Source of the DNA: Bacillota bacterium
GTDB lineage: Bacteria; Bacillota; Clostridia; Eubacteriales; Eubacteriaceae
Reading direction: 5' to 3'
Assembly: GCA_018903255.1 (NCBI GenBank)
Contig: JAHIQT010000192.1
Coordinates: 1 to 53,736, forward strand
DNA length: 53,736 bases
Shown: positions 37,788-40,400 of the stretch, in pieces
Numbering within the stretch: position 1 is the first letter of the stretch
Layout of the letters: every line of letters starts with the position of its first letter
Position numbers and translations under genes: made by a program
Notes under the pieces: generated by a model
Told to the model about the DNA's origin: nothing
The model's database searches: none
The model's input: the letters and a program-made list of their open reading frames with translations, nothing else

Positions 37788-37809
37788 AGAAAAGTATCTT
37801 AAAGTAAAA

Positions 37810-37841
37810 AAAGCAGCAACCGATCACATGGTTGCTGCTTT
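37810..37841 (-). terminator. Terminator of the degenerate-GGDEF gene
   Basis: AAAGCAGCAACC (37810-37821) pairs with 37830-37841. On the minus strand it is followed by a T-run, and it overlaps the stop codon. On the plus strand ATTTTTTT also follows, so it may work both ways. Confidence 0.85.
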
Positions 37842-39465
37842 ATTTTTTTAGATGCCTTAAGACCAGCGCCCGATAATCAAAGGGATTGGTGATATCGCGG
37901 GAGTAGGGAATGGCGGCAAGGCTAAGTGACACATCAGCTTCAACAGCTTCATACTCGAGAATCAGAGCTTTGAAGGCATCGGTAATTTCCTGATTGATCA
38001 GCAATTGATTTTTTACAGAAGTGTTTTCCATCAGAATACTGAAGATGCTGCCATCGAGAATATAAATCAGGTGGTTACTGTAGCAGTGGCTCTTGATAAT
38101 TTTTAAGGTTTTATAGAGGATCTCGTCCCAGAGCCGGGAACCGTTGATGGTTTTTAGCTCATCCAGATGATTGATCGTAATCATTTCCAGAGTCAGAATG
38201 GTTTCGCCGCGGGAAGCGCGATCCATGGCATATTTGAGATCCTTATAGTAGGCTTTTTCGATCGTCAGTCCCGGACTTTCTTCGAGATTATCATAGGATG
38301 CAATTTGCTGTTCCAGATTTTTTTTAAAATGGAACAGCTCGCGAACCTTTCTAATCAATAATGCCGAACTCCATAAAATCATCGGAATCACCAGTAGCCA
38401 ACCGATCTGATAAAATTTAAAGGGCACATCAAGGTAGAAAACCGAAATCAGCGACAAAATTACATAACTGCACAAGAGTAGAATCATAAAAAAGATACTG
38501 GCGCCATAGGGCATCGCAATGGTAAAGATTAGGCAGGTGAATAAAATAAACACCACTGAGTAATCAATAAAATTAAATTCTGAGGCAGTAAAAATCAGGA
38601 AAGCTCCAAAAATCATTAATCCCATAAAGAAAAAAACAAGCGGCGGAACCATATTGGTTAGGCTGGGCTTTTTAAGGAATTGAAGGTTCGTTTTTTTAGT
38701 TGGTTGAGCTTGTTTTTGCTTGATTGCCCTATCTTTACGTTTTTCTGGCTTTGCTTTTTGGGGCTTTGCCTTTTTCGGCGGTAGCGGTTCTTGATTAATT
38801 GGCGTTTCTGTTGTCAGCGTTGTTTTTTCCGGTTGGCGTTCTGGTGTTGTTGCCATTTCTGGGGGCGGATCGGGTTTTATTATTTCCGGGCTAACCTCAG
38901 ACAGTGGCGGCGTCGAATTTGTTTCGGCAAATCTGGAATTGTCAAAAACATCATCGGTGCCAACAGGATTGGTGAGCTCGGATTCAGTTGGTGCTTTAGG
39001 GATAGCTGCGGTTCGCTCCGCTTCATATGCGTAAGGGGTGGTTCGTCCCAGAATTTTTGATAGGGTCGGTAGTTCCTCCTCATCTTCTTCGGTTTCGCCG
39101 ATCGGTATGGAAAAGCCTGTCCGGTCACTGAGTGGCAATGGTTGACTGGTAAGCAGATCACCATTAAAAGCCAACTGATTTGATCGGGTTTCGAAAGGAC
39201 GGGAATTGAGGACGGCCTGATCGAGAGCATCGTCATCCGAGATATCTACCCCGGAAAGAAAATCTGTGCCGGGTTGGAAGGGATCATCAGAGATGGCCAC
39301 TTCAACAACATTAGGATTCATTTCTCGCGAAATAAAGCCTTCTTCAGTGAGTGAAGCAAGCTTAGCATCAATTCGTATTTCGCATTCCTGGATGGTGGCA
39401 TCCAGATGCTGTTTTTTTTCGAGAATAAGATCCAATTTACTCGGCTGGATTTTACTACTATTCAT
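37840..39465 (-). CDS. Membrane protein with degenerate GGDEF-like domain, under c-di-GMP riboswitch
   Basis: Starting at the ATG at 39465 the protein is 541 aa. It has a long hydrophilic N-terminal region (1-270) that is acidic, then Pro/Glu-rich, then strongly basic (KKAKPQKAKPEKRKDR). About four to five membrane helices follow (275-375). The C-terminal domain (about 400-541) has the spacing of a GGDEF domain, but the signature is replaced by DGSIF (471-475), so it cannot be a cyclase; it may bind nucleotide or only mediate contacts. The leader carries a c-di-GMP-I riboswitch about 340 nt upstream. No close match is known to me. The start has a weak ribosome binding site (GATGGA). Confidence 0.75.
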   Translation of the reverse strand: MNSSKIQPSKLDLILEKKQHLDATIQECEIRIDAKLASLTEEGFISREMNPNVVEVAISDDPFQPGTDFLSGVDISDDDALDQAVLNSRPFETRSNQLAFNGDLLTSQPLPLSDRTGFSIPIGETEEDEEELPTLSKILGRTTPYAYEAERTAAIPKAPTESELTNPVGTDDVFDNSRFAETNSTPPLSEVSPEIIKPDPPPEMATTPERQPEKTTLTTETPINQEPLPPKKAKPQKAKPEKRKDRAIKQKQAQPTKKTNLQFLKKPSLTNMVPPLVFFFMGLMIFGAFLIFTASEFNFIDYSVVFILFTCLIFTIAMPYGASIFFMILLLCSYVILSLISVFYLDVPFKFYQIGWLLVIPMILWSSALLIRKVRELFHFKKNLEQQIASYDNLEESPGLTIEKAYYKDLKYAMDRASRGETILTLEMITINHLDELKTINGSRLWDEILYKTLKIIKSHCYSNHLIYILDGSIFSILMENTSVKNQLLINQEITDAFKALILEYEAVEADVSLSLAAIPYSRDITNPFDYRALVLRHLKK

Positions 39466-39517
39466 ATATATCCATCGCTTTCGCAAATAATTTCGTTGCA
39501 ATATTTTTGGTCATTGA

Positions 39518-39546
39518 CTTTATCATCATAATCGTCGATGATAAAG
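39518..39546 (-). promoter_or_regulatory. Hairpin in the proximal leader of the degenerate-GGDEF gene
   Basis: CTTTATCATC (39518-39527) is exactly inverted at 39537-39546. It lies between a possible second promoter (extended -10 TGCTATAAT, 39606-39611) and the start codon. It could be an operator. Confidence 0.35.
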
Positions 39547-39737
39547 AAGCTTTTAGAGGTGGCGAATTCATACAATAAATTTAAAATAGTCCTCTACAAC
39601 TACACATTATAGCAAAGAATGTGTTTATATTAAAGAGAAAAACGAAAAAAAGACAGTTATTCCTGCTCAGTCGTATTTAAGTAATGAGCTCTGCTTAAAA
39701 ATGCTTTTAAAAAGCGGTTTTATGTTAATGGCTATGG

Positions 39738-39890
39738 AGTAAAAAAATAAAAAAAAACAACGATTAAACACGTTGCATTAAATACACATATAGATGCGCT
39801 TAAAGTTGCAACTGGCTGTCATATAAATAAATACTTAGACCCTCTAGCTTTGCGTCCTTACCTTTTGGTAAGTTTGCCGAATATATAGTT
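39738..39890 (-). ncRNA. Cyclic-di-GMP-I (GEMM) riboswitch with terminator
   Basis: The minus strand (39880 to about 39803) reads GGCAAACT, a hairpin CTTACC-AAAA-GGTAAG, GGACGCAAAGC, AGAGGGTCTAAG and ATGACAGCCAG, then GTTGCAAC: the ordered conserved blocks of the GEMM-I aptamer. The tetraloop is AAAA, not the usual GNRA. Downstream, CAACG/CGTTG (39771-39775 with 39758-39762) is followed by ten T's, a terminator. The 3' aptamer strand GTTGCA can also pair with TGCAAC at 39777-39772, which would break the terminator. Ligand binding should therefore favour termination, an OFF switch (inference). Confidence 0.93.
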
Positions 39891-39896
39891 AATCTC

Positions 39897-39925
39897 ATAA
39901 TAATACATATTTGTTATTCAGTCAA
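39897..39925 (-). promoter_or_regulatory. Promoter of the riboswitch transcript
   Basis: TTGACT (39920-39925), a 17-bp spacer and TATTAT (39897-39902) on the minus strand put the start near 39890, just ahead of the aptamer. Confidence 0.8.
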
Positions 39926-39962
39926 GTCCAAGGTTGTTATGAACGACTTATGTCCAAGGTTG
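39926..39962 (-). repeat. Two 11-bp direct repeats upstream of the riboswitch promoter
   Basis: GTCCAAGGTTG occurs at 39926-39936 and 39952-39962, start to start 26 bp, the first abutting the -35 box. They could be activator sites. Confidence 0.45.
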
Positions 39963-40083
39963 ATTTGTGGGTCAAAAGTGTGCGCATGCTAAGAATAATT
40001 CTCGCTTGTGGCGGTTTTTTTCTGATAAAATGGAGGCGAAACCATAAAGCTAGGGAGAAAATGATGTCAGGATTGAAAAACAC

Positions 40084-40400
40084 TTATCAACAGCTTCGCA
40101 TATAAATTTTGTTAAATGAGAAATTTAAAAGTGTCTATTTTGGGGAATTAAATTTAGGAATTTAAATTATCAACTTTTATCTGTGCATATGTGGATAAGT
40201 TATAAAAAAACAATTAACAGGTGCGCTATAAAAAGGCTGAACAGAAAAGCCTGTGCTTAGGCAAGTTTTTGGGGAAAAGCAAGAAATCAACAAAACTTAT
40301 CCACAAATGGTGGATAGAATTGACCAATATGTGGATAAACTTGTTGATTATCTGTTAAAATTAAAAAATTAAGTGAATTAGAGGAGCTAAATGTGGATAA
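40084..40400. other. DnaA-box cluster in AT-rich gene-free DNA (origin-like region)
   Basis: Four exact 9-mer DnaA boxes (TTATCCACA or its complement) lie at 40190-40198, 40297-40305, 40330-40338 and 40392-40400. Variants stand at 40084-40092 (TTATCAACA), 40167-40175 and 40342-40350. The region is strongly AT-rich, and the last box overlaps the GTG start of the next gene. No dnaA or dnaN is in the window, but a DnaD-DnaC pair is within 1 kb. It could be an origin, a DnaA-titration site or a DnaA-controlled promoter. No other gene is seen in 39963-40392. Confidence 0.75.

Follow-up and report, generated by a model that had tools for sequence, protein, structure and literature searches.

The window analyzed here comprises 53,736 nucleotides of contig JAHIQT010000192.1 (assembly GCA_018903255.1), from a genome deposited as Bacillota bacterium. 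Its minus strand carries a gene for a membrane protein with a degenerate GGDEF domain, preceded by a native promoter and leader, by a riboswitch of the c-di-GMP-I class (GEMM-I; c-di-GMP, cyclic di-GMP) and, farther upstream, by a cluster of DnaA boxes (Table 1). The gene was found in all 19 Acetobacterium genomes searched, its own included, and each of the 10 named relatives of the protein comes from an Acetobacterium record; the window's genome (G000) belongs with Acetobacterium. Most orthologues keep the ATG at 39465 as their start codon.

Table 1. Features of the riboswitch-GGDEF locus, in window coordinates (aa, amino acids; ORF, open reading frame).
Feature	Position	Strand	Basis or remarks
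DnaA-box cluster, exact TTATCCACA	40190..40400	40190(-), 40297(+), 40330(-), 40392(-)	Four exact boxes in 211 bp
Insert carrying the cassette, ~406 bp	39680..40085	-	Alignment of 17 upstream regions, 3 with insert; boundaries approximate
Distal promoter of the riboswitch transcript, TTGACT-17-TATTAT	39897..39925	-	Sigma-70-like, 10/12; kept in 3 carriers
GEMM-I aptamer	39804..39888	-	RF01051 match; G at ligand-specificity position (GGCAAAC), read from sequence
Predicted antiterminator	39772..39812	-	GUUGCA 39812-39807 pairs with UGCAAC 39777-39772
Intrinsic terminator, GCAACG...CGUUGU plus T tract	39746..39776	-	Hairpin scan match 39776-39757
Proximal promoter of the gene, TTAATA-16-TATAAT, TG before -10	39606..39633	-	Conserved in 17 aligned Acetobacterium loci
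Conserved 5' leader	39466..39599	-	Hairpin CTTTATCATC/GATGATAAAG at 39546-39518; GCGAAAGCGATGGA at 39484-39471
Gene, 541-aa membrane protein with degenerate GGDEF	37840..39465	-	ORF 39501-37840
Conserved N-terminal segment, residues 1-46	39328..39465	-	Alignment of 19 orthologues
Four-helix transmembrane segment, ~residues 272-375	38341..38652	-	Sequence reading; low-confidence model helices; homologues in three other genera
GGDEF-derived C-terminal domain, residues 386-541	37843..38310	-	DGSIF at 38055-38041
Gene terminator, inverted repeat plus T tract	37805..37839	-	Read from sequence

Riboswitch cassette and native promoter

The aptamer matched the c-di-GMP-I covariance model (RF01051) over its full length (model positions 1-87) with 67.7 bits against a gathering threshold of 35 (E = 3.4e-11), and c-di-GMP-I was the sole Rfam family at gathering level in the window. 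An earlier sequence-only reading of this DNA had called a GEMM-I riboswitch with its own promoter and terminator and had suggested this covariance search; the search bears out the call, and promoter and terminator are both kept in two further carrier genomes. We take the position selecting c-di-GMP over cyclic GMP-AMP (cGAMP) to lie in GGCAAAC of the window's aptamer, which has G there, not A. Two reports describe G versus A at one aptamer position as setting the choice between these ligands (PMC9481103, PMC6456294). The distal promoter ends at 39897, 8 bases before the aptamer, and homology with other cassettes begins at or after it. Since the promoter-like scan returned 9 sites in 1,000 bases (39400-40400) versus a mean of 4.6 in shuffles, the promoter match by itself is weak evidence.

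Downstream of the aptamer, sequence and folding energy indicate that a coupled two-state expression platform is present. The antiterminator's 5' strand shares bases with the 3' strand of the helix that closes the aptamer. Among 30 cassettes similar to that of the window, the GUUGCA/UGCAAC antiterminator was exact in 26, and 27 had the GCAACG/CGUUG terminator followed by a T tract. For the antiterminator, 96.0% of cells were paired versus at most 49.4% when slid; for the terminator, the corresponding values were 97.7% and at most 74.7%, and covariation adds little support for the latter helix. Because both hairpins use GCAAC, they are mutually exclusive. Forced folds of the window RNA gave ensemble energies of -29.0 (antiterminator) and -28.4 kcal/mol (terminator), 0.6 apart, and in four other cassettes the states lay 0.4 to 1.0 kcal/mol apart, the sign not being constant. 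With two states so nearly equal in energy, ligand should tip the RNA to termination, and we infer an OFF response to c-di-GMP in vivo. Class I riboswitches of Clostridioides difficile are reported to have worked uniformly as off switches (PMC6200980). On the minus strand, the scan of 39400-40400 found no further terminator-like site between 39757 and 39465.

The proximal promoter sits between the riboswitch terminator and the gene. Its extended -10 element (TATAAT) lies 146 to 158 bases ahead of the start codon in 17 loci, and both this promoter and the leader remain intact and conserved whether or not a locus carries the riboswitch. The sequence-only reading had overlooked both elements, which lie 3' of the riboswitch terminator. 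As the gene has its own promoter past that terminator, the riboswitch can contribute a transcript but is not necessarily in charge of the gene. The 14-mer GCGAAAGCGATGGA of the leader occurs in 17 of the 19 genomes, as a single copy in all of these but G009, which has two. No Rfam family matched the leader (39599-39466) at gathering level. Only slight covariation was seen (2 of 17 predicted pairs changed on both sides) and shuffles fold almost as well as the window's leader (z = -0.77), so that a structured leader is not established; the nearly unique GCGAAAGCGATGGA possibly marks an unrecognized regulatory RNA or a protein-binding site. A leader peptide or conserved upstream ORF was rejected, the leader varying by single-base lengths among species.

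The GGDEF-derived membrane protein

By sequence and by structural model, the C-terminal domain belongs to the GGDEF superfamily. The Pfam GGDEF family scored 26.0 bits on the domain alone (cutoff, 23.8) and 22.5, below the cutoff, in the whole protein; the NCBIfam GGDEF model stayed below its cutoff of 37.4 in both cases (24.9 and 21.3). The genome holds 53 GGDEF matches, and that of this protein is the weakest (25.2 bits). A model of the 160 C-terminal residues was modest (pLDDT 57.1, pTM 0.53; other four models, 39-45), and Foldseek returned GGDEF-containing structures in all of rows 1 to 46 (best E = 2.9e-3, none at or below 0.001) and yeast Cdt1 in row 47, so that the structural comparison proposed by the sequence-only reading places GGDEF structures first. 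A 285-residue model was poor (pLDDT 51.9), and its Foldseek list was headed by GGDEF proteins with E values of at least 0.27. A sequence search of the PDB gave nothing at 0.001, the first row being the unrelated FD15 (E = 0.02).

The catalytic residues are gone, as the sequence-only reading had concluded from the signature, which reads DGSIF at residues 471-475. None of the 19 orthologues has GG[DE]EF (DGSVF in 11, DGSIF and EGNVF in 3 each, DGHIF and EGNIF in 1 each). At the two first-strand positions of the profile's DxD, placed by an ungapped alignment to 6eib with an E value of only 0.08, none of the 19 has Asp; T/S/A and R/S/C/N/P stand there instead. The RxxD inhibitory site, which we take to lie five residues before the signature, is likewise absent from all 19, which read YSTH (10), YNTH (3), YSNH, FSTH, and YSSH (2 each). 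Because signature and RxxD are missing throughout, neither synthesis nor binding of c-di-GMP through the known sites is expected of the protein, and it is predicted to be c-di-GMP blind in this sense. The domain is nevertheless very strongly conserved, with MENTS and KNQ invariant in all orthologues. PelD, also a degenerate GGDEF protein, keeps the inhibitory site, in contrast to the orthologues here.

The protein probably acts through protein contacts at the membrane, possibly between GGDEF domains. Degenerate GGDEF domains of Escherichia coli reportedly contact other GGDEF domains (PMC5635695), and such contacts are plausible here because of the many GGDEF matches in the genome. CdgI, described in that report, is likewise GGDEF derived and without an active site, but it keeps the inhibitory site.

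The N-terminal 270 residues had been described as a low-complexity region. The region is not simply of that kind: residues 1-46 and two short motifs, DISDDDALDQAVLNSRPFE and EELPTLSKILGR, are conserved in most of the 19 orthologues and are joined by a variable P/K-rich stretch. The proposal of a retired enzyme needs a similar change: catalytic residues are indeed gone, but 7 homologues from three further genera (g2, g3, and g5) of the same bacterial family, most of them shown beside the same methyltransferase gene, have hydrophobic helices and no GGDEF domain by eye. Pfam found no family in one of them (L045), and in a sister genus the syntenic protein is without the domain. The protein may therefore never have been a cyclase, and the GGDEF tail may be Acetobacterium specific within our sample. 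In three genomes of g3, which may be Eubacterium, a CRISPR array (RF01316) lies directly downstream of the syntenic gene (L040, L044, and L045).

Separately, G000 encodes a 295-aa paralogue (G000:C76:14823-15569). Its counterparts in G001 and G009 (L048 and L049) lack the signature by eye, have RVED in the position of the inhibitory site, and combine hydrophobic helices with a GGDEF domain (38.1 bits in L048). L048 adjoins a gene with a BcsB domain and a UDP-N-acetylglucosamine (UDP-GlcNAc) 2-epimerase gene, and this family may be a PelD-like exopolysaccharide receptor.

Distribution of the cassette and its bearing on the gene

The riboswitch precedes the gene in only 3 of the 19 genomes (G000, G006, and G010). 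The remaining 16 Acetobacterium genomes had no GEMM-I match before the gene at gathering score, nor were aptamer remnants found in non-carriers at that threshold. Among the 10 named loci, L004 alone has the riboswitch, and it is apparently the same locus as L025 of G010. An alignment of the upstream regions of 17 genomes (all except G011 and G012) placed approximately 385 to 407 bp between the DnaA-box cluster and the native promoter in carriers, whereas both adjoin in the 14 aligned non-carriers. The sequence-only reading had proposed that a messenger-sensing RNA controls the gene. A switch does sit upstream, but a general design is not supported, as only 3 of the 19 genomes have the switch there and the gene has its own promoter. 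The gene was presumably self-sufficient before the cassette arrived, and the riboswitch appears to be a recent add-on ahead of an existing gene in a few species.

Among the best 60 of 97 BLAST rows, homology of the insert to other loci spanned promoter to terminator, and outside that span no other locus was matched, apart from loci overlapping the window itself or representing this same site in the carriers. The nearest cassettes outside the locus were in G000 (contig C52), G009, and G018. That on C52 is 80% identical and precedes a gene whose product has two PepSY stretches (58.2 bits with Pfam); like other Acetobacterium cassettes, it shares homologous promoter, aptamer, and two-state terminator. 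The cassettes of the other two carriers are only 89% and 91% identical to that of the window, with the two-state platform intact in all three. The insert was also inspected as a mobile element, which was rejected, as it showed no convincing terminal repeats or target-site duplication.

The trees of the region conflict with each other. The intergenic DNA holding the DnaA boxes (DNA trees of 16 genomes, without G008, G011, and G012) unites the three carriers with support of 98/99 and rejects a grouping of G000 with the non-carrier G002 (p-AU = 4.4e-5). The protein tree of the gene, in contrast, places G000 beside G002 (100/97), with a carrier clade rejected (p-AU = 0.002), and four upstream genes likewise group G000 with G002 (98/98; flank-gene trees without G007, G008, and G011, the downstream tree also without G005). 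An earlier tree of methyltransferase and DnaA-box DNA combined had united the carriers with 93/98. This conflict suggests that the regulatory segment has moved by recombination, and one insertion followed by exchange of the intergenic block between lineages is the simplest reading that the sequences suggest. Bacteria have been described to exchange noncoding regulatory DNA.

We favor the reading, with a probability of roughly 0.6, that c-di-GMP shuts down an additional mRNA for a membrane protein that is itself blind to the messenger, by way of a cassette inserted before a self-sufficient gene. In a few Acetobacterium lineages, a complete cassette of promoter, aptamer, and antiterminator/terminator would have been inserted upstream of the gene. 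When c-di-GMP is low, GUUGCA of the closing helix would pair with UGCAAC to form the antiterminator, and read-through to the gene would yield a second mRNA alongside that from the native promoter. When c-di-GMP is high, it would keep GUUGC within the aptamer and leave UGCAAC free, so that the CAACG/CGUUG terminator would form, the distal transcript would stop near 39746, and expression from the native promoter alone would stay.

Several observations weigh against this reading. The minimum-free-energy fold of the riboswitch leader was not stabler than shuffles (z = -0.20; 86 of 200 as good). In the antiterminator, 0 pairs changed on both sides and shuffles reached every covariation measure; as its strands hardly vary, covariation is no test of this helix. 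One C. difficile class I locus is described in the same report as showing a transcript rise with c-di-GMP (PMC6200980). The 5' coding stretch of the methyltransferase gene, the proximal leader, and two downstream genes do not place G000 firmly. Since 16 of the 19 genomes lack the cassette, the core role of the gene does not depend on it. Finally, transcription from the native promoter could outweigh that from the cassette and leave the riboswitch without consequence for the gene, or read-through could interfere with that promoter and reverse the sign of the response.

The cassette might not control the gene at all, being either the source of a short, c-di-GMP-dependent attenuated RNA or a passenger of intergenic recombination, with the native promoter alone driving expression. 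Conservation of that promoter and the leader in carriers and non-carriers, the presence of the cassette in just 3 genomes, and the approximately 280 nt between its T tract and the start codon (versus ~55 to 60 nt to the next ATG in L156) all agree with this. However, the two-state platform has stayed intact in the carriers despite their divergence, which suggests that selection keeps it working, and the strand holds no ORF of at least 50 aa between terminator and gene, so we regard this alternative as unlikely, although it is the strongest of the competing explanations. Considerably less probable still is an ON switch by interference, in which read-through at low c-di-GMP would lower the output of the native promoter and the ligand, by stopping it, would raise expression. 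The distal transcript would indeed cross the conserved native promoter at 39633-39606, but the read-through RNA itself would carry gene and leader, and interference would have to outweigh this added mRNA.

Two further alternatives, both of which we consider improbable, concern the history of the switch and the chemistry of the protein. An ancestral riboswitch lost in most species, instead of one gained and spread, is compatible with the gene tree, which alone needs three changes and could be fitted by one gain and two losses. Deep-branching genomes without the riboswitch, the single insert-free layout shared by the 14 aligned non-carriers, and the one clade formed by the carriers' neighboring intergenic DNA, contrary to the gene and its upstream genes, argue for gain. 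A C-terminal domain that still senses c-di-GMP or a nucleotide through a changed site, so that RNA and protein read the same messenger, would account for its strong conservation and invariant motifs, and degenerate GGDEF proteins can bind c-di-GMP, as described for CdgI with its intact inhibitory site (PMC5635695). Against such a sensor, signature, first-strand Asp positions, and RxxD are gone in every orthologue, and the conserved residues would fit protein contacts equally well.

None of the parts is new, neither the riboswitch class nor the OFF platform nor degenerate GGDEF proteins; their combination is a new instance. Within the literature searched, no riboswitch came up ahead of a GGDEF protein lacking both sites, and no title dealt with the Acetobacterium case. 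The GEMM-I riboswitches of C. difficile are of the same aptamer class and are described as off switches, with flagellar and surface genes among their targets (PMC6200980, PMC9286219). The window's cassette differs in its target, a non-catalytic membrane protein of GGDEF derivation whose gene retains a promoter of its own, and in being an insert found in few species.

More interesting than these parts is the evolutionary aspect, with a conserved DnaA-box array bordering the gene region. Related species that share the gene and its native promoter but differ in the cassette offer a natural before/after comparison, in which one can study how a riboswitch comes to a new target and whether control really passes to an added cassette. 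The locus also marks an uncharacterized membrane protein family whose GGDEF-derived tail lacks catalytic and inhibitory sites and yet is strongly conserved.

DnaA-box cluster and other GEMM-I loci

The four boxes of the cluster are the only exact DnaA boxes in the window. At least two exact boxes were present in all 18 Acetobacterium loci with an uncut upstream region, and a similar array lies beside the same methyltransferase gene in four g3 genomes (L183-L186). Genes with a DnaB_2 domain (replication initiation and membrane attachment) and a DnaA-like ATPase domain are close by. A chromosomal origin was rejected: in the window, GC skew is positive to either side of the cluster, and in G002 the skew turns between the samples at 2.60 and 2.80 Mb, which flank dnaA at ~2.67 Mb, with the locus at 3.21 Mb, ~547 kb from dnaA. 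By its sequence, this is thus a non-origin cluster, with several boxes away from oriC. The DnaA-box clusters of Bacillus subtilis (Okumura 2012, via PMC5295017) and datA/DARS of E. coli are likewise described as holding multiple boxes outside oriC. Unlike those, the window's array is conserved at a single intergenic site in two genera, beside the gene studied here and close to replication-protein-like genes.

More tentatively, GEMM-I cassettes in Acetobacterium may be portable modules of promoter, aptamer, and terminator that copy between loci and then spread between species by intergenic recombination, the window's module having moved with the conserved non-origin DnaA-box array as one block in a regulatory rewiring still in progress. 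In that case c-di-GMP would set the dose of a protein blind to it near replication-initiation-like genes, in some species only, and the messenger would possibly be joined to a DnaA-linked locus.

Other GEMM-I loci showed further arrangements. Among the matches listed, two sets of four lie on one strand within ~440 to 540 bp (G016:C27:1312-1853 and G018:C10:299524-299961); c-di-GMP-I doublets and triplets are counted in a review (PMC9481103). At the ligand-choice position, 13 of the 30 similar cassettes have A for G, including first members of tandem pairs (e.g., L158, L161, L163, and L179). In L018 (G000:C204:12284-12388, outside the 30), an A aptamer is followed by a second aptamer and then by a gene whose product carries an N-terminal methylation motif of the pilin type. 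Such A-type aptamers may respond to cGAMP or give a mixed response. A related GEMM-I in L017 (G000:C151:2364-2448) lies before a fliK-like gene, whose Flg_hook match of 19.5 bits is below the 29.8 threshold in a sequence cut by the end of the locus.

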